Shown here: positions 3,715 through 39,290 of the stretch, piece by piece
Layout: every line of letters starts with the position of its first letter
Position numbering within the stretch: the stretch's first letter is position 1
DNA from: an uncultured Clostridia bacterium
GTDB lineage: Bacteria; Bacillota; Clostridia; Oscillospirales; Ruminococcaceae
Direction: 5' to 3'
DNA: 56,730 nucleotides
NCBI GenBank assembly: GCA_947630825.1
Contig: CANRJA010000011.1
Coordinates: forward strand, 1 to 56,730
The notes under the pieces: model-generated
The model's database searches: none
Told to the model about the DNA's origin: nothing
Seen by the model: the letters and a program-made list of their open reading frames with translations, nothing else
Position numbers and translations under genes: made by a program

Positions 3715-5076
3715 TTAAAGTCCTTTTCTTGCGAAATTCATTAGCTCGCTTTTTGTGTTTTTGAGTTTATTCTCCAATACAAGCGTGAGAATTTCGTTCA
3801 GGATTTTTCCTATAGCATCACCTGCAAAGCCCATTTCAATAAGATCGTTCCCGTTTATTTCGAGGTCTTTCAAATTAAGCGGTACATTTGATTTTATAAC
3901 CTTGTCACCTATATTCTTTACTTCGCTGATTGTTCTAAGTTTATCTTCACGCATATATTCAGACTGCGCTAATGTGTCAGCTTTTCTTATCTTTATATAG
4001 TCTTTGAAAAAATCCTTGCCGTATTTTGATATAAATTTTTTTACCGACTTTTCATTTGCCGGAAATCTGTTATCGTGCTGTTCGATAAGATAGCAAATAT
4101 AATTTATATCTTTATTTGAAAACCTAAGAAAGTGTAATATCTTTTCAGCCAATTGCTTGCCTACATACGGGTGAGTTTTAAAGTGTGAAATTCCTTGCTT
4201 GTCGGTTTTCAAAGTGTTCGGCTTGCCAATGTCGTGAAGTAGCATTGTCATACGCAGATATGGCAAAGGCTCGATATTTGAAACTGAGTGCGCTGTGTGT
4301 TCATAAACATTATAACAGTGATGAGGTGTGTTCTGAGGCGTTAAATCGCATTTTTTTAACTCGGGTATTATAGAAAAAATAATCTCTTTATATTCAATTA
4401 AAATGGATAATACATTCTCTCCTGTGATAAGCTTTAAAAGCTCGTCCCGAATACGCTCTTTGGACACAAAGCTAAGCAGCTCTGCTTTTTTGTATACAGC
4501 AGATTTTGTTTTCGCATCGATTTCAAATTTGAGCGTTGACGCAAACCTTAAAGCACGAAGTATTCTCAGAGCGTCTTCTTCAAAGCGAGTATACGGCTCT
4601 CCGACACAGCGGATTATTTTGTTTTCAATATCATTCAGTCCGCCGAAATAATCTATAAGCCCTGACTTATTGTTGTAAGCAAGTGAATTGATAGTAAAAT
4701 CACGCCTTGATAGATCTTCCTTGAGGCTGGAAACGAATTCAACTCTTTCAGGGTGACGGTGATCGCAATAGCTTAAATCCTTTCTGAAGGTTGTAATCTC
4801 AATCTGCATACTGTCGATCACAACTGTTATTGTTCCGTGCTTTAAGCCTGTTTCTATTATTTTATAACAGGAAAAAATGTCTTTCAGCTTTTCAGGCTCG
4901 CAGCTTGTACAGATATCCCAGTCGGCAGGTTCTTTGCCCATAAGAGAATCGCGAACGCAGCCGCCTACGCAATATGCTTCAAAACCGTTTGCTTCAAGAA
5001 TATCAATGATTTTTTCTGCCTGATAAGGGATTTTTATTTTAATATCCGATATTTTGTATTTATTTTTTATACTCAT
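3715..5076 (-). CDS. cca: CCA-adding tRNA nucleotidyltransferase
   Basis: A 453-aa enzyme that builds or repairs the 3' CCA end of tRNAs using CTP and ATP. The nucleotidyltransferase head shows CVGGCVRDSLMGKEPADWD (residues about 36-54), with the GG-x-RD motif and the catalytic DWD pair. A downstream EDALRILRALRF motif follows. A metal-dependent HD phosphohydrolase domain lies in the second half (LLHDIGKP, later EQHDNRFP). Start at 5076 has GGTGA nearby. The gene precedes nothing co-oriented closely and follows the DUF1275 gene by 15 bases, so the two are probably cotranscribed. Confidence 0.95.
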   Translation of the reverse strand: MSIKNKYKISDIKIKIPYQAEKIIDILEANGFEAYCVGGCVRDSLMGKEPADWDICTSCEPEKLKDIFSCYKIIETGLKHGTITVVIDSMQIEITTFRKDLSYCDHRHPERVEFVSSLKEDLSRRDFTINSLAYNNKSGLIDYFGGLNDIENKIIRCVGEPYTRFEEDALRILRALRFASTLKFEIDAKTKSAVYKKAELLSFVSKERIRDELLKLITGENVLSILIEYKEIIFSIIPELKKCDLTPQNTPHHCYNVYEHTAHSVSNIEPLPYLRMTMLLHDIGKPNTLKTDKQGISHFKTHPYVGKQLAEKILHFLRFSNKDINYICYLIEQHDNRFPANEKSVKKFISKYGKDFFKDYIKIRKADTLAQSEYMREDKLRTISEVKNIGDKVIKSNVPLNLKDLEINGNDLIEMGFAGDAIGKILNEILTLVLENKLKNTKSELMNFARKGL

Positions 5077-5091
5077 TTTTCACCTTTTATA

Positions 5092-5787
5092 TTAATCTTT
5101 TCTAATGGTAAAAATTAAAAATACAGCTAGAAGTATTATGTCGCAAAACCAAATGCAGTGATAACCAATGCATTTTGACAGAACAGCTCCTATGAATGCG
5201 CCTAGAATAAACATAAGAATTACGCCTATATATTTAATACAGCTTTTAAGACCGTCTTTGTTTTTATAATGAGTGTATTTGAAAAGGTTTTCAAAGCAGC
5301 TTCTCAAATTTCCCGTACACATTGTAGAGGCATAAGGTATACCTTCAATTTTTCTAAAGCTGTTTACCTGTATTGAGCATATAAGCGATATCAAAACATT
5401 TACTATTCCGTGAGGAACATTTAAGGGTATAAAGCCTATTATAAAAAGCAATACTGTTTCAATTATTATAACAAAATGCTCCCATTTTATAAACAACTTT
5501 TTGGTAAAGCTTGTTTTAATAATTTCTGCTATGTACACGCCTATTGCGAATGCAAGTATAGGAATCAAATAATAACTTGCCTGATAAAAAGCTCCTCTTG
5601 CGGTATTAACAGCAAGCAGAACTATATTTCCTGTTTGAGCGTTCGCAAACACTCCTCCTCTTAAAACGAATGTATAAGCGTCTAAAAAACCGCCGACTAC
5701 GGCTAACAGACCTCCGATTAAAAACATTTCGTGAGAAGGAATGCTTTTTTTAATTGTGTTTGATTTTTTTGCAGTATCCTCTTTCAT
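5092..5787 (-). CDS. DUF1275 (YoaK-type) membrane protein
   Basis: 231 aa with about six hydrophobic segments. The N-terminal signature GGLLAVVGGFLDAYTFVLRG followed by FANAQTGNIVLLA is typical of the DUF1275/YoaK family, whose substrate is unknown. AAAGGAA lies about 10 bases before the start. It sits upstream of cca in the same orientation, an association that does not clearly predict function. Confidence 0.88.
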   Translation of the reverse strand: MKEDTAKKSNTIKKSIPSHEMFLIGGLLAVVGGFLDAYTFVLRGGVFANAQTGNIVLLAVNTARGAFYQASYYLIPILAFAIGVYIAEIIKTSFTKKLFIKWEHFVIIIETVLLFIIGFIPLNVPHGIVNVLISLICSIQVNSFRKIEGIPYASTMCTGNLRSCFENLFKYTHYKNKDGLKSCIKYIGVILMFILGAFIGAVLSKCIGYHCIWFCDIILLAVFLIFTIRKD

Positions 5788-25327: not shown

Positions 25328-27973
25328 CTAAAAGTCTTCTATCAGCTTTTCGCCATAGTATGCTTTGAGATACATATCCTTGATCTCGCTCATAAGAGGA
25401 TATCTCGGGTTAGCTCCTGTGCATTGGTCGTCGAATGCGTCCTCAGTCATCTGGTCGAGAGTAGCCATAAAGTCTTCCTCAGAAATTCCGTAATCCTTTA
25501 TAGACTTCTTAATACCTACCGTTTCTTTGAGGTTGTCGATAGCGTCTATAAGGAGTTCAAGAGTTTCCTTATCGTCCTTGCCTCTAATGCCTAAGAAACT
25601 TGCGCACTCGCAGTATCTTTCAAGAGTATGAGGATATTGATATTGTGAGAATGTTCCCATCTTTCTTGGCGACGGGTTAGCATTGAACCTCATAACATTG
25701 TCAATCAAAAGTGCGTTTGCAACGCCGTGAGGCAGGTGATGATAAGCACCCAGCTTATGAGCCATTGAGTGGCAAACACCTAAGAATGCGTTGGCGAACG
25801 CCATACCTGCAAGCGTTGATGCCGTAGCCATCTTTTCTCTTGCGAGAGGGTCGTTAGCTCCTTTTTCGTATGCAGACGGCAGGTAAGTGAAGATGTTTTT
25901 AAGAGCCTTTAATGCAAGACCGTCTGTGTAATCTGTAGCCATAACAGATGCGTATGCTTCAAGAGCGTGGGTAACAGCGTCGATACCTGAAGCCGCTGTA
26001 AGTCCCTTAGGCTGATTCATCATCATATCAGCGTCTACAATAGCCATATTAGGCATCAGTTCATAGTCGGCAAGAGGATATTTTGTACCTGTTCTTTCGT
26101 CTGTAATAACTGCAAAAGGTGTAACCTCAGAACCTGTACCCGATGAAGTCGGAACGGCAACAAAGTAAGCCTTTTCGCCCATTTTAGGGAATGTGTAAAC
26201 TCTCTTGCGGATATCAATAAATCTCATTGCCATATCCATAAAGTCAGCTTCGGGATGCTCGTACAGCACCCACATAATTTTAGCAGCGTCCATTGCCGAG
26301 CCTCCGCCTATTGCGATAATAACGTCAGGTCCGAAGGCCGTCATCTGCTTTGTACCCTCTAAAGCGCAGGCAAGCGTCGGGTCGGGGGCAACGTCAAAGA
26401 ACGTAGCGTGCTTGATTCCCATTTCGTCTAATTGGTCTGTAACGCATTTTGTGTATCCGTTTTCGTATAAGAACTGGTCTGTAACAATAAAGCACTTCTT
26501 TTTATCCATTACTGTCTTAAGCTCACGTAGTGCGACCGGCAAACAGCCCTTTTTGAAATAAACCTTTTCAGGTGCTCTGAACCAAAGCATATTCTCTCTC
26601 CTCTCGGCAACTGTCTTTATGTTTAATAGATGTTTAACTCCTACATTTTCAGAAACTGAGTTTCCTCCCCAAGAACCGCAGCCCAGCGTTAATGACGGGG
26701 AAAGCATAAAGTTATAAAGGTCGCCGATACCGCCGTGTGATGAAGGAGTGTTTACAAGAATACGGCAGGTCTTCATCATATTAGCAAACTTATCTATCTT
26801 TTCCTTTTCGGTAACAGGATTAACGTAAAGTGAAGCCGTGTGTCCGTATCCGCCGTCTTTTATCAAGTGGTCGGCTTTGTTTAAGGCGTCGTCGAAGTCT
26901 TTTGCCTTATACATACCCAGAACAGGAGACAGCTTTTCGTGAGCAAAAGGCTCGTCGAGAGAAACAGATGTGACCTCACCGATAAGAATTTTTGTACTTT
27001 CCGGAACGTCGATCCCTGCGAGTTTAGCAATATCATATGCAGACTGTCCGGCGATCTTTGAGTTAAGAGAGCCGTTGATTATCATTGTTTCACCGAGCTT
27101 CTTTGTCTCTGCCTTGCTGAGAATATAGCATCCTCTTTCTTTAAACTCTTTCTTGACCTCTGTGTAGATGTCTTTATCAATGATGACCGACTGCTCGGAA
27201 GCACAGATAACTCCGTTATCGAATGTTTTTGAATGAATAATTGAGTTTACAGCCATCTTAATATCAGCCGATTTATCAATAACAGCAGGTACGTTTCCTG
27301 CGCCGACTCCGATGGCAGGCTTTCCGCTTGAGTAAGCGGCATGAACCATACCTGGTCCGCCTGTTGCAAGAATAATGTCAGCCTCGCTCATTACCAAATT
27401 TGTAAGCTCAAGTGACGGAACGTCAATCCAAGCGATAATTCCCTCAGGAGCGCCTGCTTTTACGGCAGCTTCCAAAACGATTTTTGCCGCTTCAATGGTA
27501 CATTTCTTAGCTCTTGGGTGAGGGGAGATAATAATTGCATTTCTTGTCTTTAAGCAGATAAGAGTTTTGAAAATTGCAGTTGAAGTAGGGTTGGTAGTAG
27601 GAATAACCGCCGCAACCACACCGATTGGTTCTGCGACTTTAATAGTGCCAAAAGCCTCGTCTCTTTCGATAATGTCGCAGGTTTTAGTATTCTTATATGC
27701 GTTGTAGATATATTCAGCCGCATAGTTGTTTTTTATAACCTTGTCCTCAACAATTCCCATACCTGTTTCTTCAACAGCCATTTTGGCAAGCGGTATTCTC
27801 TGCTTGTTTGCCGCAATAGCCGCCGCCTTGAAGATCTCATCAACCTTTTCCTGAGGATATGCTGCAAACTCTTCTTGAGCCTTTCTAAGCTCTTTCAGCC
27901 TTGCCTCTAAAGTCTCAACACTGTCGACAAGCGTTACTGTTGTCCCTGCTGATGTTTCTTTCTTGTTACTCAT
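25328..27973 (-). CDS. adhE: Bifunctional acetaldehyde-CoA/alcohol dehydrogenase
   Basis: 881 aa, the usual AdhE length. The N-terminal CoA-acylating aldehyde dehydrogenase half has the catalytic Cys in DNGVICASEQ (about residue 250) and the SSGKPAIGVGAGNVPAV loop. The C-terminal iron-dependent alcohol dehydrogenase half has GGGSAMDAAK and the iron-site His residues in DAVTHALEAY and GVCHSMAHKLGAYHHLPHG. It reduces acetyl-CoA to ethanol with two NADH. It lies 42 bases after rex on the minus strand and shares its Rex-controlled promoter, a direct redox feedback. Confidence 0.97.
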   Translation of the reverse strand: MSNKKETSAGTTVTLVDSVETLEARLKELRKAQEEFAAYPQEKVDEIFKAAAIAANKQRIPLAKMAVEETGMGIVEDKVIKNNYAAEYIYNAYKNTKTCDIIERDEAFGTIKVAEPIGVVAAVIPTTNPTSTAIFKTLICLKTRNAIIISPHPRAKKCTIEAAKIVLEAAVKAGAPEGIIAWIDVPSLELTNLVMSEADIILATGGPGMVHAAYSSGKPAIGVGAGNVPAVIDKSADIKMAVNSIIHSKTFDNGVICASEQSVIIDKDIYTEVKKEFKERGCYILSKAETKKLGETMIINGSLNSKIAGQSAYDIAKLAGIDVPESTKILIGEVTSVSLDEPFAHEKLSPVLGMYKAKDFDDALNKADHLIKDGGYGHTASLYVNPVTEKEKIDKFANMMKTCRILVNTPSSHGGIGDLYNFMLSPSLTLGCGSWGGNSVSENVGVKHLLNIKTVAERRENMLWFRAPEKVYFKKGCLPVALRELKTVMDKKKCFIVTDQFLYENGYTKCVTDQLDEMGIKHATFFDVAPDPTLACALEGTKQMTAFGPDVIIAIGGGSAMDAAKIMWVLYEHPEADFMDMAMRFIDIRKRVYTFPKMGEKAYFVAVPTSSGTGSEVTPFAVITDERTGTKYPLADYELMPNMAIVDADMMMNQPKGLTAASGIDAVTHALEAYASVMATDYTDGLALKALKNIFTYLPSAYEKGANDPLAREKMATASTLAGMAFANAFLGVCHSMAHKLGAYHHLPHGVANALLIDNVMRFNANPSPRKMGTFSQYQYPHTLERYCECASFLGIRGKDDKETLELLIDAIDNLKETVGIKKSIKDYGISEEDFMATLDQMTEDAFDDQCTGANPRYPLMSEIKDMYLKAYYGEKLIEDF

Positions 27974-28015
27974 TTATAAATCTCTCCTATTCATAAATAA
28001 AAAATTAAATGCTAA

Positions 28016-28654
28016 TTAATGGCGTCTTTTTATAGATTTAGACAGAAGTGCAATTGACGCCGAAAGATTTTCATTCTGAACAATTATATCGTCAGGCACA
28101 TTTAAATGTACCTGAGCAAAGTTCCATATAGCCAGAACTCCTGCTTTTACCATAATATCGCAAATTTCCTGAGCGTGCTTATCTGGAACAGTTATTATAC
28201 CGATTTTAACATTGAAGCTTTTGCAAATCTCGCTTATACGGTTAATTGGAAAAATCCTTTTTCCGTGAACCTCTGTACCAATTAATTTTTCGTTTGTATC
28301 AAAACCTGCAACAACATTTAGACCGTGGTTTTTAAAACCCTCAAATGATATTAACGCACTGCCTAAATGTCCGACTCCGACGATGATAGCGTCCTTAACA
28401 TTATCATAGCCCAAATACTTTTCAATATCCAAAATCAGATCTCTCAGCAGATATCCTGTTCTGGGCTTTCCTCCGCATTCGCTAACCGCCGCTAAATCCT
28501 TTCTGACCTGTACCTCATTGAGGTTCAGCCCCTTGGCAACAATAGGTGCAGAAATGGTCATAACGCCCTCTTCTGCCTTACCCCTAAGATAGGTTAGATA
28601 ATCAGGAAGTCTTTTAACTGTTTGTTTTGGTACTGTTTTTTCATTCTCGAACAT
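28016..28654 (-). CDS. rex: Redox-sensing transcriptional repressor Rex
   Basis: 212 aa. An N-terminal winged helix (about 1-80) contains RLPDYLTYLR and VRKDLAAV. The Rossmann NAD(H)-binding half carries VGVGHLGSAL, with GxGxxG (about residue 92). A C-terminal swapping helix follows. Rex reads the NADH/NAD+ ratio and releases DNA at high NADH. It is the first gene of the rex-adhE operon, with a Rex-type box in front, so it should control itself. GAGGTGGTAAT lies before the start. Confidence 0.96.
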   Translation of the reverse strand: MFENEKTVPKQTVKRLPDYLTYLRGKAEEGVMTISAPIVAKGLNLNEVQVRKDLAAVSECGGKPRTGYLLRDLILDIEKYLGYDNVKDAIIVGVGHLGSALISFEGFKNHGLNVVAGFDTNEKLIGTEVHGKRIFPINRISEICKSFNVKIGIITVPDKHAQEICDIMVKAGVLAIWNFAQVHLNVPDDIIVQNENLSASIALLSKSIKRRH

Positions 28655-28743: not shown

Positions 28744-28761
28744 TTGTTAATTATTTGACAT
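28744..28761. promoter_or_regulatory. Rex-type operator upstream of rex-adhE
   Basis: TTGTTAA-TTAT-TTGACAT matches TTGTTAA-N4-TTAACAA at 12 of 14 defined positions. It ends 8 bp upstream of the -35, exactly as at pckG. Confidence 0.7.
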
Positions 28762-31889: not shown

Positions 31890-32951
31890 ATGAATAACAG
31901 AGAGTTAATTGAAAAGCTGAAAAGTGAAAGAGCCTTATCGAAAGATGAATTCACACAGCTTATCAGTACATATACAAAAGAAGACAGAGAGTTTGCCGCA
32001 AAACTGGCAAGAGAAGAGGCAAACATGGTATTTGGAAAAAAGATTTTTGTAAGAGGTCTTATTGAGTTTTCAAGCTACTGCAAGAATGACTGTTACTATT
32101 GCGGTTTAAGACGCTCAAACATAAATGCCGAGCGCTACCGTCTAAGCAAAGAGGATATACTAAGGTGTGCTGACGAGGGGTATGAACTGGGTTTCAGAAC
32201 CTTTGTACTGCAAAGCGGTGAGGACGGTTACTACACTGACGAGATTTTATGCGATATTGTGAAGAGCATAAAAGGCGCACATTCTGATTGTGCGATAACT
32301 CTTTCATTGGGCGAGAGAAGCGAGGAGAGTTATCAAAGGCTTTTAGACGCAGGTGCTGACAGGTATCTGCTTCGCCACGAGACGGCTAATGCCGAGCATT
32401 ATGCAAGACTTCACCCTAAAAACTTAAAGGCAGAGCATAGGCAGGAATGTCTGAGAACATTAAAAAGGATAGGCTATCAAACAGGCTGCGGATTTATGGT
32501 AGGTTCGCCGTTTCAGACGGCGGAGAATTTAGCAGAGGATATGCTGTTTATCAAAAGGCTTGACCCTGAGATGGTAGGTATAGGACCGTTTATACCTCAG
32601 CACGATACGCCTTTCAGAGACGAGCAAAAGGGCAGTCTTGAGGATACGCTTTTTATGCTGTCGCTCATAAGGCTTATGAAGCCGAATGTGCTTCTTCCTG
32701 CAACTACGGCTCTTGGAACTATTTCGCCAATCGGCAGAGAGCAGGGAATTTTGGCAGGGGCTAATGTTGTTATGCCAAATCTCTCGCCGACGGAGGTAAG
32801 GTCGAAGTACCTTTTGTATGACAACAAAATTTGCACAGGAGATGAATCTGCACAGTGTAAGGAGTGTTTAAATAACAGAATGAAAAGCATAGGATATGAG
32901 ATAGTTACCGACAGGGGAGATTATCAGGAATTGACAATTGACAATGGATAA
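31890..32951 (+). CDS. hydE: [FeFe] hydrogenase H-cluster radical SAM maturase HydE
   Basis: 353 aa, a BioB-like radical SAM TIM barrel. The cluster motif CKNDCYYC (about residues 63-70) binds the catalytic [4Fe-4S]; LQSGEDGYYTDE and CGFMVGSPFQT are further family marks. HydE helps build the azadithiolate bridge or iron precursor of the H-cluster. The last residues (ELTIDNG) and the stop codon lie inside a 7-bp tandem repeat that also occurs elsewhere, so the C-terminus has been reshaped by that repeat. AGGAG lies before the start. Confidence 0.96.
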   Translation: MNNRELIEKLKSERALSKDEFTQLISTYTKEDREFAAKLAREEANMVFGKKIFVRGLIEFSSYCKNDCYYCGLRRSNINAERYRLSKEDILRCADEGYELGFRTFVLQSGEDGYYTDEILCDIVKSIKGAHSDCAITLSLGERSEESYQRLLDAGADRYLLRHETANAEHYARLHPKNLKAEHRQECLRTLKRIGYQTGCGFMVGSPFQTAENLAEDMLFIKRLDPEMVGIGPFIPQHDTPFRDEQKGSLEDTLFMLSLIRLMKPNVLLPATTALGTISPIGREQGILAGANVVMPNLSPTEVRSKYLLYDNKICTGDESAQCKECLNNRMKSIGYEIVTDRGDYQELTIDNG

Positions 32952-32956
32952 TGAAC
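32929..32956. repeat. Heptanucleotide repeat at the hydE 3' end
   Basis: Units AATTGAC, AATTGAC, AATGGAT, AATGAAC run across the hydE stop codon. They are related to the inverse of ATTATCCATTGTCAATT-type arrays such as 12791-12822. Confidence 0.75.
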
Positions 32957-32995
32957 ATATTTGTGTTTAAATAAAATCAAAAACGGAGGATCATT

Positions 32996-34417
32996 ATGAA
33001 GTACGATGTTAAGTCTATGAAGGCAGAGGAATTTATCAACGACGCCGAGATTTTAGATACCTTGAAAGAGGCAGAGAAGCGTAAAGACGATAAGGAATAT
33101 GTTATGTCACTTATCGAGAGGGCAAGAGACTGCAAAGGATTAAGCCACAGAGAAGCTGCAGTACTGCTCGAATGTGAAATTCCTGAGTGTATTGAGGCTA
33201 TGGAAAAAACGGCAATGGAGATAAAGGAGAAGCTGTATGGTGACAGAATAGTAATGTTCGCACCGCTGTATCTTTCTAACTATTGTGTAAACGGCTGTAC
33301 ATATTGCCCGTATCATCACTGCAACAAGCATATAGCAAGAAAGAAGCTGTCTCAGGAGGAGATCAAAAAAGAGGTCATAGCCCTTCAGGATATGGGACAT
33401 AAAAGGCTTGCTATAGAATCGGGCGAGGACCCTGTGAATAATCCTATCGAGTATATTTTAGAGAGCATAAAAACTATATATTCTATAAATCACAAAAACG
33501 GTGCTATCAGACGAGTTAATGTAAATATTGCGGCAACGACGGTAGAAAACTACAGAAAGCTCAAGGAAGCAGGGATCGGAACATATATTCTCTTTCAGGA
33601 GACTTATAACAAACATGACTACGAGCTTTTGCACCCGACAGGTCCTAAGCACAATTACGCTTATCACACTGAGGCTATGGATAGAGCAATGGAGGGCGGA
33701 ATTGACGATGTAGGGATCGGAGTTTTGTTCGGGCTTGAGATGTATAAGTACGATTTTGTAGGTCTTTTGATGCACGCAGAGCATCTGGAGGCTGTTCACG
33801 GGGTAGGTCCGCATACAATTTCTGTGCCGAGAATATGCGGCGCTGACGACATTGACAAAGCTGATTTTTCAAATGCAATTTCAGACGATATTTTCGCAAA
33901 ACTGGTAGAGGTAATAAGAATTGCCGTTCCGTATACTGGAATGATAATTTCAACTCGTGAGTCGAAGAAGTCAAGAGAAAGGGTTTTAAAGCTTGGAGTT
34001 TCTCAAATCAGCGGAGGCTCCAGAACGAGCGTAGGCGGTTATGTTGACCCCGAGCCTGAGGAGGAAAACTCTGCTCAGTTTGACGTTACCGACACAAGAA
34101 CATTAGATGAGGTCGTAAACTGGCTTTTGGAAATGGGTTATATTCCTAGCTTTTGTACGGCTTGCTACCGTGAGGGCAGAACTGGCGACAGGTTTATGAG
34201 TTTGTGCAAATCGGGTCAGATAGCAAACTGCTGTCAACCGAATGCTCTTATGACATTAAAGGAGTATCTTGAGGATTATGCAAGTGAGGATACAAGACGA
34301 AAGGGAGAGGCTTTGATTAAAAAACAGCTTGAGCTTATCCCCAATGAAAAGACCAGAAGAATAGCCAAAGAGAGAATTGAAAAGATACATTTAGGCGAGC
34401 GTGATTTTAGGTTTTAA
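32996..34417 (+). CDS. hydG: [FeFe] hydrogenase H-cluster radical SAM maturase HydG
   Basis: 473 aa, a tyrosine lyase of the ThiH type that supplies CO and CN ligands for the H-cluster. The radical SAM motif CVNGCTYC (about residues 96-103) is followed by the HydG hallmark YHHCNKHIARKKL. The C-terminal extension holds the second, dangler-iron cluster motif (CTACYREGRTGDRFM and a later CC pair). CGGAGGA precedes the start. Central gene of the operon. Confidence 0.97.
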   Translation: MKYDVKSMKAEEFINDAEILDTLKEAEKRKDDKEYVMSLIERARDCKGLSHREAAVLLECEIPECIEAMEKTAMEIKEKLYGDRIVMFAPLYLSNYCVNGCTYCPYHHCNKHIARKKLSQEEIKKEVIALQDMGHKRLAIESGEDPVNNPIEYILESIKTIYSINHKNGAIRRVNVNIAATTVENYRKLKEAGIGTYILFQETYNKHDYELLHPTGPKHNYAYHTEAMDRAMEGGIDDVGIGVLFGLEMYKYDFVGLLMHAEHLEAVHGVGPHTISVPRICGADDIDKADFSNAISDDIFAKLVEVIRIAVPYTGMIISTRESKKSRERVLKLGVSQISGGSRTSVGGYVDPEPEEENSAQFDVTDTRTLDEVVNWLLEMGYIPSFCTACYREGRTGDRFMSLCKSGQIANCCQPNALMTLKEYLEDYASEDTRRKGEALIKKQLELIPNEKTRRIAKERIEKIHLGERDFRF

Positions 34418-34462
34418 TTTTAAGGTGAGACGGGTTAATAATTTTTGAAAGGCGGAATGTTT

Positions 34463-35662
34463 ATGCCGACGTTAAATGAAACACCAAGATCAGACAGACT
34501 TCATATAGGCTTTTTCGGAAAGAGAAATGCGGGAAAGTCAACGCTTATAAATGCCCTTGCAAAACAGCAGATATCAATAGTATCAGACGTCGCCGGAACG
34601 ACGACTGATCCTGTGTTTAAGTCTATGGAGATAGCAGGGATAGGCGCTTGCGTTCTGATTGACACAGCAGGCTTTGACGATATAGGCGAGCTTGGAAAAA
34701 TCAGAGTTGAAAAGACAAAAAAAGCGGCTGAGAAAACAGATGTTGCAGTAATACTATTTTCCGATTCAGATATAAAAAAAGAGCTTGAATGGTTTGAATA
34801 TTTCAATAAAAGTGGTACGCCCGTTTTGCTTGTAATAAGCAAAGCTGATATTATGTCAAGCGATGAAATTTCACAAATAAGCTCTGAGGTTAAGAAGGCA
34901 ACAGGCAAAGAGCCGTTGGTTGTAAGCGCTGAGAATGAGAGCATAACGGAAAGGTTTAAAGAAAATCTAATACGTCTTATACCTGAGGATTTTGGCAGCA
35001 GAAGTATAACGGGGGATTTAGTAAGCGACAGCGATTTGGTGCTTTTGGTAATGCCTCAGGATATTCAAGCGCCTAAGGGGCGGCTTATACTTCCTCAGGT
35101 ACAGACAATTCGTGATTTGCTTGATAAAAAATGTATTGTTATGAGCTGTACTACAGACAGGCTTGATAAAACTTTAAATGCTTTGGCTTATCCTCCTAAG
35201 CTGATAATTACCGACTCGCAGGTGTTTAAAACGGTTTATGAAAAAAAGCCAAAGGAAAGTATGCTGACTTCTTTTTCGACTCTGTTTGCAGGGTATAAGG
35301 GAGATTTGGAATATTATATAAAATCCGCAAAGTCTGTAGAGATGCTGACTGAAAAGTCTAAGGTTCTAATTGCAGAGGCTTGTACCCATGCGCCTTTAGC
35401 AGAGGATATTGGCAGAGAAAAGATACCGAGAATGTTGAGAAAAAAGGTCGGCGAGGGACTAAAAATCAATGTTGTTGGCGGTTCTGATTTTCCTGAGGAT
35501 TTAACAGAGTACGATTTGATAATTCAGTGCGGAGCGTGTATGTTTAACAGAAAATATGTAATGTCGAGAATTGACAGGGCAAAGGCACAAGGCGTTCCTA
35601 TGTCAAATTACGGAGTTATAATTGCTTATTTGAACAACATTTTAGATAAAATTTCATATTAA
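34463..35662 (+). CDS. hydF: [FeFe] hydrogenase H-cluster maturation GTPase HydF
   Basis: 399 aa from the ATG at 34463, eight bases after AAAGGCGGA; earlier in-frame starts overlap that site. The GTPase domain (about 1-175) has GKRNAGKST (P-loop), DTAGF and SKAD. A dimerisation part and the cluster-binding C-terminus follow. HydF is the scaffold that delivers the [2Fe] subcluster to HydA. Cluster ligands are in CTHAP (about 308) and CGAC (about 356). The residue before CGAC is Gln, where the usual pattern has His. hydA itself is not in the window. Confidence 0.96.
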   Translation: MPTLNETPRSDRLHIGFFGKRNAGKSTLINALAKQQISIVSDVAGTTTDPVFKSMEIAGIGACVLIDTAGFDDIGELGKIRVEKTKKAAEKTDVAVILFSDSDIKKELEWFEYFNKSGTPVLLVISKADIMSSDEISQISSEVKKATGKEPLVVSAENESITERFKENLIRLIPEDFGSRSITGDLVSDSDLVLLVMPQDIQAPKGRLILPQVQTIRDLLDKKCIVMSCTTDRLDKTLNALAYPPKLIITDSQVFKTVYEKKPKESMLTSFSTLFAGYKGDLEYYIKSAKSVEMLTEKSKVLIAEACTHAPLAEDIGREKIPRMLRKKVGEGLKINVVGGSDFPEDLTEYDLIIQCGACMFNRKYVMSRIDRAKAQGVPMSNYGVIIAYLNNILDKISY

Positions 35663-35666
35663 AAAT

Positions 35667-35800
35667 GGCTGATGAATATTCATCAGCCTGCAACGGTGAC
35701 GTTGCATACACCCTGTCTTTGAAAAATTTAAAAACGGCAGGTCGTACTTGGATAAAAAGCAAGTGCGAGTTTGATGCAGTGTGACCGTTGTATTTTTATA
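35667..35800. repeat. Structured intergenic element, copy B, with flanking palindrome
   Basis: The gap between convergent hydF and pflA opens with a perfect 22-bp dyad at 35667-35688 (half-site GGCTGATGAAT). Hairpin TGCAACG-GTGA-CGTTGCA (GNRA loop) follows at 35689-35706. Next is stem CCTGTC (35712-35717) / GGCAGG (35736-35741), and then hairpin CGTACTTG / CAAGTGCG (35743-35766). An outer closing stem CAACGGT (35691-35697) / ACCGTTG (35784-35790) would exclude the first hairpin. Shares its order and GTCGTAC with copy A. Confidence 0.5.
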
Positions 35801-35805
35801 TATGA

Positions 35806-36549
35806 TTATTTCCGCGTAGTTTTTATTCCGCTTAAAATAATCTTTTTAGCTTTCAAAGCGTCCTCTTTTGAAAGCGGTGGAGTATCTTTTAATGGATAAT
35901 CAATTCCAAGCGCTTCATATTTAGACTTTCCCATATCGTGATAAGCTAAGACGTCTATCGACTTTAAATTTTTAAGCGTTCCGATGTATTTACCCAACTC
36001 AAAAAGATAATGCTCATCATAGGTTATGCCCGGCACAACTACATGACGTATACATACAGGAACATTTTTGTCTTCGAGAAATTTAGTAAAATCTAGTATG
36101 TTTTTGCTCGAGAAGCCGGTGAGTTTTTTGTGTTCATCATCGTCTATGTGCTTAATATCAAGAAGCACAAGATCAGTGTATTTAACAAGCTCGTTGAATT
36201 CTTTGACTTTTTTCTTGTTATCCTTATCAAACAAGATTCCCGATGTATCAATGCAGGTGTGGATTTTCTGGGATTTAGCGGCTTTGAAAAGCTCAGTTAC
36301 AAATTTCATCTGCAAAAGCGGTTCTCCGCCGCTGACTGTTATTCCGCCGTTTCTGTAAAAACTCTTTTTTGAGTTGTATCTTGAAAGTATCTCTTTAACG
36401 CTTATTTCCTCTCCGCCTGTCATATCCCAAGTGTCAGGATTGTGGCAATACTGACACCGCATTGGGCAACCCTTAGTAAAAATAACCATTCTCACTCCCG
36501 GACCGTCTACCGTTCCGAAGCTTTCTATTGAATGTATGTGACCAAGCAT
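35806..36549 (-). CDS. pflA: Pyruvate formate-lyase activating enzyme
   Basis: 247 aa radical SAM enzyme. The cluster motif CPMRCQYCHNPDTW (about residues 28-41) and the GGEPLLQ motif are both present. It abstracts hydrogen from the radical-domain glycine of PFL. Here its natural target must be the separate 83-aa protein encoded 41 bases upstream, unless PflB and that protein form the substrate together. Last gene of the four-gene minus-strand cluster. Confidence 0.96.
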   Translation of the reverse strand: MLGHIHSIESFGTVDGPGVRMVIFTKGCPMRCQYCHNPDTWDMTGGEEISVKEILSRYNSKKSFYRNGGITVSGGEPLLQMKFVTELFKAAKSQKIHTCIDTSGILFDKDNKKKVKEFNELVKYTDLVLLDIKHIDDDEHKKLTGFSSKNILDFTKFLEDKNVPVCIRHVVVPGITYDEHYLFELGKYIGTLKNLKSIDVLAYHDMGKSKYEALGIDYPLKDTPPLSKEDALKAKKIILSGIKTTRK

Positions 36550-36590: not shown

Positions 36591-36842
36591 TTACAGCTTA
36601 TCGTGGAATGTTCTTGAAATAACCTCGTCCTGCTGTGCTTTTGTAAGCTTGACAAAATTCACTGCATACCCGGATACACGGACAGTAAGCTGAGGGTATT
36701 TCTCAGGGTGCTTTTGCGCGTCTATTAAAGTTTCACGAGACAATACATTTATATTGAGGTGGTGTCCGCCCTCCTCTGCATATCCGTCTAAAATTGAAAC
36801 AAGATTGTCTATTTGTTCTTTATTTGCCTTTACCTTTGACAT
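36591..36842 (-). CDS. grcA: Stand-alone glycyl radical domain protein (GrcA-like), PFL radical subunit
   Basis: 83 aa, matching only the last part of a full-length PFL. It carries [25 protein letters not shown] and the radical loop RVSGYAV with the likely radical Gly58, ending in the canonical RTFH helix. It resembles the E. coli repair protein YfiD/GrcA. Because the PflB of this operon has no such domain, I infer that it is the essential radical-bearing subunit, not a spare part. A strong GGAGGG lies before its ATG. It lies between the 77-aa paralogue and pflA. Confidence 0.9.
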
Positions 36843-36883
36843 AATTATTCCCTCCTAAGTTTATTCACTGAATTATTACTGAA

Positions 36884-37117
36884 TTATTGAAGAAGCTCGT
36901 CACCGTCGTCTAAGCCCTCAAACAATGTAGGTGAACTGCAAGGCATATTTCCTTCCATACAGTCCAGTGATTTTGAAACGGAAACCTTTTTGCGTTTACC
37001 GTTGAATTTTACACCGCCGTTGCTGTTTACCTTAATGTTCATATGTCCGCCTTTTTTAGACATAAAATCATCAAGCATTGCTACGATATCATCTATTCTC
37101 TCATCTGAAGTTTTCAT
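36884..37117 (-). CDS. Glycyl-radical-domain paralogue lacking the radical loop
   Basis: 77 aa. Residues about 7-30 (RIDDIVAMLDDFMSKKGGHM then NIKV) align with the start of the neighbouring 83-aa radical protein ([21 protein letters not shown]). After that the similarity ends: there is no RVSGYAV loop, but a basic segment (GKRKKVSVSK), two Cys (53 and 60) in LDCMEGNMPCSSP and an acidic end. GGAGG precedes the ATG, 24 bases after the pflB stop. It may occupy the PflB docking site as a cap, chaperone or inhibitor; this is inference. Confidence 0.75.
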   Translation of the reverse strand: MKTSDERIDDIVAMLDDFMSKKGGHMNIKVNSNGGVKFNGKRKKVSVSKSLDCMEGNMPCSSPTLFEGLDDGDELLQ

Positions 37118-37141
37118 AATATCCTCCGTTATTTATCAGTT

Positions 37142-39223
37142 TTAATACTCTTTGTCAAAGCTGTCTGTTTCAGAAAGCTCAATATCCACGTCAATATCGC
37201 CGACATAAATTTTATTATCCTTTCCAAGCGATTCAGGAATAATTGAGAATGTATTTGAAATGCCGTCCTGAGCGTCTTTGAAAGGAAGCTTTGAAACCGA
37301 CTTGAGCGACGCTACTGCGCCGTTTTTATCACGGGAGTGCATAGGGTTCGCTCCCGGAGCAAACGCCTCTCCGCCTTTGCGTCCGTCAGGCGTTGAGCCT
37401 GTGTTCTGCCCATAAACTACATTGGAAGTAATGGTTAGAATTGAAGTTGTAGGTATGCCGCCTCGATAGGTATGGTTACCTTTGATGTAGCTCATAAAGA
37501 TGTGAACTATATCGCTTGCTATTTCATCTACTCTGTCGTCGTCATTGCCGTATCTGGGAAAGTCTCCTTCGATTTCGTAATCTACGGCGATACCCTGCTC
37601 GTTTCTTATCGGTTTTACCTTTGCATATTTTATTGCCGAAAGCGAATCCGCAACAACCGAAAGACCTGCAATTCCCGTAGCAAACCATCTTGTGACCTTC
37701 TTGTCGTGGAGAGCCATTTGTATTCTTTCATAGCAGTATTTATCGTGCATATAGTGAATTATATTAAGTGCGTTCACATAAACCGAAGCCAGCCACTTCA
37801 TCATATCCTTGAATTTATCCATAACCTCTTTGTAGTCGAGATATTCTGACTTTATAGGTCTGTATTTTGGACCTATCTGCTTCATTGAAATTTCATCGAC
37901 ACCGCCGTTTATAGCGTAAAGCAGGCATTTTGCAAGGTTCGCCCTAGCCCCGAAAAACTGCATTTCCTTGCCTATTCTCATTGAAGATACGCAGCAGGCG
38001 ATTGCATAGTCGTCACCGTGAGTTACCCTCATAAGGTCGTCGTTTTCATATTGTATTGATGATGATTCTATTGAAGTCTTAGCGCAGAACCTTTTGAAAT
38101 TGTCAGGCAGGTTTACAGACCACAAAATTGTAAGGTTCGGTTCAGGCGCAGTGCCGAGATTTTCAAGCGTGTGGAGATACCTAAACGACATCTTTGTTAC
38201 CATATGCCGTCCGTCGACGCCTATGCCGCCTATTGATTCCGTTACCCAAGTTGGATCGCCTGAGAAAAGCTCGTTATATTCCGGCGTTCTTGCAAATTTT
38301 ACAAGTCTTAGCTTCATTATGAAGTGATCGACAAACTCTTGGATCTGCTCCTCTGTAAACGTGCCGTTTTTAAGGTCACGCTCTGCGTAAATGTCAAGGA
38401 AAGTTGAGGTTCTGCCCAGCGACATTGCTGCACCGTTTTGCTCCTTAACAGCTGCTAAATATGCGAGGTATGTCCACTGAATTGCCTCCTGAACGTTTTG
38501 TGCCGGCTTTGAAATGTCGAAGCCATAAATTTTACCCAGTTCAATAAGCTCTCCTAAGGCTCTTATCTGCTCGGAAAGCTCCTCACGTTCACGGATAACA
38601 TCGGAGTACATTGTTATTCTTGTTGTATCCTTTTGGTGTTGCTTGTCTTCAATAAGCTTGTCAACTCCGTAAAGGGCAACCCGTCTGTAGTCTCCTATAA
38701 TTCTTCCTCTGCCGTAAGCGTCAGGAAGTCCTGTTATAATGTGGCTGGAACGGCAGGCTCTCATTTCAGGCGTGTATGCGTCAAAAACGCCCTGATTGTG
38801 GGTTTTTCTATGAACGGTGTAGAATTTGCAGATGTCAGGGTCTACCTCATAACCATTTTCTGAGCAGGCTTTCATTGCCATACGGATTCCTCCGTTAGGC
38901 TGTAAAGCCCTTTTAAAGGGCTTATCCGTCTGAAAGCCGACTATCTTTTCTTTGTCCTTATCAAGATATCCGGGACCGTGCGATGTAATGGTCGAAATGA
39001 TTTTAGTGTCCATATCCAGAACTCCGCCGGCTTCACGCTCCTTCTTTGATAAATCCATAACCTGCTCCCAGAGGTCTTTTGTGGCTTGAGTAGGTCCGGC
39101 AAGAAATTTATCGTCCCCGTCATACGGTTTATAGTTTTTTTGAATAAAGTCACGAACGTTTATCTCCCTTTTCCAAACACCGTGATTAAATCCATTCCAT
39201 TCTTCAAAATTCATTGTTTTCAT
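37142..39223 (-). CDS. pflB: Pyruvate formate-lyase catalytic subunit without glycyl radical domain
   Basis: 693 aa from the ATG at 39223 ([12 protein letters not shown], aligning with the usual PFL N-terminus); a longer frame to 39271 is unlikely. The PFL barrel is intact, with [41 protein letters not shown] and the catalytic Cys pair in IACCVSS (about residues 410-411). The protein stops shortly after [12 protein letters not shown] with a short acidic tail, where normal PFL (about 760 aa) continues into the radical domain. That domain is encoded separately downstream. It converts pyruvate and CoA to acetyl-CoA and formate. Confidence 0.95.
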
Positions 39224-39290
39224 ATTTCGTTCTCTTTCTCCCAAATGTAGTTTTATATTTTTATGAAACATATCATTATTATATTAAACT

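Follow-up and report, generated by a model that had tools for sequence, protein, structure and literature searches.

A naturally split pyruvate formate-lyase in Clostridia: a separate glycyl radical subunit and a cysteine-bearing third module

Pyruvate formate-lyase (PFL) is the textbook case of a glycyl radical enzyme; an equally familiar weakness is that oxygen destroys it at the radical glycine. A parallel to the locus reported here has been engineered. According to the available text of PMC8683613, E. coli PFL cut at residue 695 and combined with YfiD, or with YfiD lacking its N-terminus, has wild-type activity once activated; binding and activation of the pair are weak, residues 696-733 of PFL are required for YfiD recognition, and free YfiD shows no detectable activation. 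A 2025 review, in the portion available (PMC12288474), states that such small proteins are made by "some facultative anaerobes". Among the open-licence literature matches listed, none describes a PFL that is split by nature.

Parts of such a system are nonetheless on record. The radical protein described below has already been noticed, as its NCBIfam name, GrcA3, indicates. The closest solved sequences are PDB 38lb (1167 bits) and 38la (1129.5 bits), both Formate acetyltransferase. In a tree calculated without 19 near copies, 38lb falls inside the branch of split PFLs, implying that at least one group has a split PFL in hand, and 38la, which ends GKED, falls just outside it. Both entries are absent from structure-library matches to 2026-04-08 and are therefore probably newer.

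The pfl operon and the identity of its products

We analysed a 56,730-nucleotide stretch ("the window") from an uncultured member of the Ruminococcaceae. Four cistrons transcribed from the minus strand in the order pflB, 77-aa gene, 83-aa gene and pflA (Table 1) are separated by spacers of 24, 41 and 41 bases. An in-frame ATG at 39271 offers pflB an alternative upstream start that would give a protein of 709 aa. The first-pass annotation had credited each cistron with its own GGAGG-type ribosome site; this holds for the 77-aa gene (GGAGG) and the radical gene (AGGAGG), but upstream of pflB there is only the less clear GGGAGAAAGAG. The site in front of pflA is AGGAGAGG.

Table 1. Features of the pfl operon in the window.
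Feature	Position	Strand	Remarks
pflB core	37142-39223	minus	ATG at 39223, 693 aa; stops at the linker preceding the glycyl radical domain, followed by a new acidic C-terminal tail
Middle protein gene, 77 aa	36884-37117	minus	Helix and strand as in the radical subunit, then C-x6-C-x2-PTLFEGLD
Glycyl radical subunit gene, 83 aa, RVSGYAV	36591-36842	minus	NCBIfam GrcA3 (NF038360); PF01228 49-106
pflA, radical SAM activating enzyme	35806-36549	minus	TIGR02493
Terminator-like hairpin after pflA, 9 pairs, T-rich tail	35667-35688	minus	Consensus match only

PflB exceeds the cut-off of the PFL model TIGR01255 (1101.8 against 994.2 bits), its residues 25-690 matching model positions 2-667 of 744. The 83-aa protein corresponds to model positions 661-744. 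Placed on the E. coli chain, the cut lies near residue 681, with the core reaching about 680 and the radical protein taking over at about 682, so the two together cover the enzyme. PflB keeps the active-site cysteine pair (IACCVSS, aligned to IACCVSP in E. coli), but the glycyl radical domain is not on its chain, the loop-bearing half being a separate cistron. These alignments bear out the proposal that PFL is naturally divided here between a PflB core and an 83-aa radical protein, that both carry the expected motifs, RVSGYAV included, and that they complement each other when aligned to full-length PFL. In the full-length PFLs of relatives (40 compared of 44 found, a few of them twice from the same genome), the distance between core and radical loop does not vary, indicating that the fission was precise. 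The 83-aa protein passes the cut-off of GrcA3, NF038360 (163.4 against 158 bits), and falls below those of GrcA/YfiD, TIGR04365 (94.4 against 170), and GrcA2, NF008341 (106.6 against 145). PflA scores 290.3 bits against TIGR02493 (cut-off 231.75).

Codon changes were counted in three pairwise comparisons that involve two near genomes and the window. In the radical gene 2, 9 and 11 codons differ, all of them synonymously. By the same counts pflB has 4-10 non-synonymous against 58-85 synonymous codons, and the middle gene 2-4 non-synonymous against 5-12 synonymous.

The 77-aa middle protein has no Pfam family above cut-off, no match in the plasmid collection, and nothing in the PDB (best E 1.5). 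Against NF038360 it gives a weak match below the cut-off, confined to residues 4-31 (19.2 bits, E 0.001). Profile-profile comparison with the radical subunit is much clearer (probability 96.2, E 2.7e-9, 36 columns), and the matched stretch is the helix and strand that precede the radical loop; we assign this strand to the beta-10 named in the available text of PMC8683613. Beyond the strand, 37 of 37 aligned middle proteins have, where the radical loop would be, a stretch ending C..C..P, and none of them carries the SGYA radical motif; the strict motif was checked on these 37 of 63 middle proteins. The middle protein is thus no GrcA3, having neither a cut-off score nor a radical glycine motif, and its homology was shown for the first half. 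Newly recognized here is the kinship of the 77-aa protein with the radical subunit's first half, a C..C..P element standing in the loop's place. That a further complete cistron separates the two halves had been recognized at the outset; its kinship to the radical subunit had been missed.

No terminator-like hairpin was found between the cistrons on the operon strand. The terminator scan gave 4 matches in the region against a shuffled mean of 3.4, and promoter and terminator scans alike gave counts the same as in shuffled sequence. A search of the whole window for Rex-type sites (TTGTTAANNNNTTAACAA, up to 3 mismatches) returned 13 matches against a shuffled mean of 11.5, with none upstream of pflB and one, with 3 mismatches, near the operon in the spacer between the radical gene and pflA.

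Neighbouring genes were noted in passing from their sequence. Genes resembling hydE, hydG and hydF, for FeFe hydrogenase maturation, lie at 31890-35662, convergent with the pfl operon. Genes resembling adhE and rex stand in tandem at 25328-28654, with Rex-like palindromes at 28744 and 28801 (2 and 3 mismatches, in a window whose total is not above chance).

Distribution and phylogeny of the split

The genome that holds the window (1.82 Mb, 94% complete, 49 contigs) contains a single PF02901 match, and the search for another pflB with a radical domain therefore came back empty. At 94% completeness, this genome taken by itself could still have a second pfl that escaped assembly. Its other full PF01228 protein adjoins a small radical SAM protein and reads as the anaerobic ribonucleotide reductase, NrdD. 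Pyruvate:ferredoxin oxidoreductase is also present, so PFL need not be the sole route to acetyl-CoA.

Surveys were extended to the family, class and phylum. Within the family, 69 of 119 genomes have a match over the PFL cut-off, 18 of them split, 51 full-length and none both. The class sample gave 98 of 196 genomes over the cut-off; ten are split, none with a second match over the cut-off, and in the nine that were new the radical gene lies within the retrieved locus in every case. Only two split genomes were among the 89 of 299 over the cut-off in the phylum sample. Partial PFL matches under the cut-off were kept out of these classes (four genomes of the family; G560, G546 and others in the class sample). 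Across the three samples, full-length TIGR01255 matches over the cut-off are absent from all 27 distinct split genomes. Among the relatives that bear names are Ruminococcus bicirculans, R. albus, R. flavefaciens, Blautia, Lachnotalea, Claveliimonas, Beduini and Massilimicrobiota.

In a quick maximum-likelihood tree of 120 PflB cores (SH-aLRT support, 11 near copies left out), 90 split PflBs form one branch without a fused member (SH-aLRT 99). The recurrence of the arrangement in 27 genomes, together with this single branch, indicates that the split is no artefact; a survey of relatives had been suggested as a check. Just outside the branch are one split PflB (L191) and two fused ones (L167 and L174), whose branching order is unsettled. 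The fewest fused/split changes that fit the tree are two: two fissions, or one fission and one re-fusion. L191 is a minimal split PFL: its PflB ends GKDD without a tail, and a short way on comes the radical gene, which is in another frame and has a ribosome-like site. It possibly arose by a separate fission.

Some variation in layout and setting was also observed. Two loci (L089 and L184) have the gene order pflB-radical-middle in place of pflB-middle-radical, and in a third (L102), whose 9.8 kb yielded no PflB, there is a radical subunit gene of this family at 4992-5240. IMG/VR contigs L132 (990-1214), L133 (5001-5225), L134 (5001-5225) and L135 (5001-5216) encode radical subunits that share 67-79% identity with that of the window; no PflB was found in the available DNA of these four contigs, two of which are 145 and 167 kb long. 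Gut phages may thus carry a radical subunit for the split PFL of their host. In INPHARED, a GrcA-like stretch is present in 1539 of 50,697 phage records, mostly enterobacterial phages, but coverage reaches 80% of the query in only 36. Matches over 95% come from a small number of unannotated records of 2 to 78 kb that bear the names of Staphylococcus, Listeria or Enterococcus phages and may be mislabelled gut contigs.

A cysteine module in two positions and the proposed assembly of the enzyme

The reading of the locus as a two-part enzyme was right about the split, but it did not recognize what the middle cistron is, nor that a cysteine-bearing tail on PflB can take its place. Among 101 distinct split systems, 65 have the middle gene, 29 have a Cys tail, seven have neither and none has both. 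The counts draw on the nearest 80 of at least 578 relatives, 17 loci, the window and nine split loci; 105 split loci were reduced to 101 by removing two with PflB cut by the contig (L085 and L125), one duplicate (L099, of L037) and one identical entry (L188, the same as L057). A Cys tail is defined as two or more cysteines in the C-terminal tail of PflB, a criterion chosen after looking at the tails. The pattern C..C..P[TN][LIV] occurs in 15 of 26 tails, ten of the 26 having PTLFEGLD as in the window's middle protein; the remaining 11 have CACCEP, CC or other cysteine pairs. For comparison, one or two cysteines lie between core and loop in 4 of the 40 full-length PFLs, without the motif.

If rows were independent, the exclusion of middle gene and tail would have a Fisher p of 5e-19, but the rows are not independent. 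Within the split PFLs the tree shows 13 changes of state. Five independent pairs on starred branches could be compared, with the tail opposite in three to five and the same way in none, and the sign test on these pairs is not significant (median p 0.125). The exclusion is thus strong by count, clustered phylogenetically and based on few independent switches; by phylogeny it is suggestive. Since seven of the 101 systems have neither form, the module is not indispensable. In a set of 98 loci, from which L053 (PflB incomplete in the contig) and L102 (lacking PflB) were dropped, seven have neither form of the module, and five of these show the order pflB-pflA-radical gene. After GKD, most split PflBs continue into a new acidic extension (type VFxGDLDID), those without cysteines included; this may be a docking strand.

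We favour, with a probability of roughly 0.85, the overall explanation that the locus encodes a natural multi-piece PFL consisting of a PflB core, an obligatory radical subunit, PflA and a Cys module. Its assembly, the exchange of the subunit and the role of the module we infer as follows. The barrel and the Cys-Cys thiyl site would come from PflB, to which the 83-aa subunit would add, in trans, the last strand together with the glycyl radical loop. PflA would install the radical on the 83-aa subunit, most likely while it is docked on PflB, by analogy with E. coli YfiD. Cleavage by oxygen at the radical glycine would then spoil only an exchangeable 9-kDa piece, and it is plausible, as had been proposed, that the cell discards just this cartridge. 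Indirect support comes from E. coli, where complexes with truncated PFL match the wild type in activity after activation, poor as that activation is (PMC8683613). The third module, present in most split PFLs, would be a short Cys element carried either on the PflB tail or on the middle protein beside the helix-strand copy, and would act while the radical subunit is absent or being charged. The natural split resembles the engineered E. coli pair and should face the same problem, namely weak docking and an open site; because the acidic tail and the Cys module are the extra parts noticed, we assign them to docking or to keeping the site.

When a tail-type PflB was modelled with its radical subunit as a joined chain (L062; 94 rows, 736 residues), the result lay 3.1 A from 1cm5 and reproduced the PFL fold to the last residue. 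This fits assembly in trans but is weak evidence of docking, because the two parts formed a single chain and PFL is known to AlphaFold. The two-piece model gives the fold but, its Cys tail being disordered (pLDDT under 50), not the position of the module. A three-piece pseudo-fusion of PflB, middle protein and radical subunit (L052, 52 rows) gave a poor model (pLDDT 61.7).

Other readings of the two halves can be weighed against the same data. An assembly error or a recent nonsense mutation in one gene might be suspected, the window being a contig of a 49-contig genome, but this is barely credible given the genes' own ribosome sites, another gene in between, and the recurrence of this layout in isolate or complete genomes that have names (Ruminococcus bicirculans, Claveliimonas bilis, R. 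albus and Beduini massiliensis). The first-pass annotation had likewise argued against a simple frameshift, and rightly: another gene intervenes, and the same split is seen in other genomes. By the coordinates, the radical gene lies in a different frame from pflB in the window; in one near copy (L052) all three genes share a frame, with six stops separating them. Recurrence, the preponderance of synonymous changes and the lack of a second PFL in the genome searches led us to reject frameshift, mis-assembly and a second PFL. Nor is it probable that the 83-aa protein serves as a common spare part of the GrcA/YfiD kind next to a pflB that is truncated, dead or decaying. Its NCBIfam name, autonomous glycyl radical cofactor GrcA3, would suit a spare part, and GrcA-like genes are common, phages included; yet the 83-aa protein falls under the GrcA and GrcA2 cut-offs, and in the 27 split genomes, which have no full-length PFL over the cut-off, it would have nothing to repair. 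A dying pflB, for its part, is at odds with changes that are mostly synonymous and with the same linker end in all tails compared. As far as sequence goes, the earlier view that the radical subunit is obligatory, unlike GrcA, is upheld, and with no other PFL in its own genome the 83-aa protein is very probably an obligatory part of the enzyme and not a repair part.

The middle protein leaves more latitude. Chance placement of an unrelated small gene in the operon would agree with the want of a Pfam family above cut-off; the profile relation to the radical subunit and the exclusion with the Cys tail make it quite improbable. Most likely the module binds where the radical subunit sits on PflB, or close by, and serves in docking, placeholding or thiol protection, any one of these roles being tentative. 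A possible reading, held no more firmly than that, is that the middle protein is a docking or recognition element for PflA or the radical subunit, replacing E. coli residues 696-733, with cysteines that are structural or metal-binding and take no part in redox or radical chemistry. According to the available text of PMC8683613, YfiD binding to E. coli PFL cut at 695 is undetectable and the glycyl radical level is 32-fold below that reached with a cut at 733, and the exchange of the module with the PflB tail points the same way. Nothing speaks directly against a docking element; the two conserved cysteines fit either reading. The alternative, somewhat more doubtful, is that the middle protein or Cys tail is a radical-free mimic in the radical subunit's seat, where two thiols at or near the catalytic cysteines would hold, protect or quench an empty or oxygen-damaged site until a newly charged radical subunit arrives.

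A lineage containing Ruminococcus, Blautia and relatives, in which every surveyed member is split, suggests that a radical cofactor can be a true subunit. With the multi-piece PFL, nature provides a system for measuring docking, charging and replacement with no need to break the enzyme first, and the exchangeable Cys module is a testable handle on how an open radical site is handled.

Comparison with known systems

Benzylsuccinate synthase also has small proteins tied to a glycyl radical enzyme, its beta and gamma subunits. An accessory subunit of this type carries four cluster-binding cysteines on one chain. The beta and gamma subunits bind [4Fe-4S] clusters in a HiPIP-like fold, whereas the middle protein of the window has two cysteines, too few for a [4Fe-4S] accessory subunit of that kind, and is kin to the radical domain. 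With canonical PFL (TIGR01255, E. coli PflB) the split enzyme shares the core, the Cys-Cys site, the radical motif and the PflA partner. It differs in having the radical domain on an 83-aa protein, an acidic and sometimes Cys-bearing tail in the place of the linker and, in many split systems, an extra 77-aa protein. Like E. coli GrcA/YfiD, the 83-aa subunit is a small protein that comprises the last strand and radical loop and would act in trans on PFL. Unlike GrcA/YfiD, it is encoded in the pfl operon of genomes where no intact PFL was found, and it is without the 60-residue disordered N-terminus that the available text of PMC8683613 describes for YfiD. By its score the 83-aa subunit is a member of GrcA3 (NF038360), a family whose name speaks of an autonomous cofactor, whereas the data presented here argue for an obligatory subunit.
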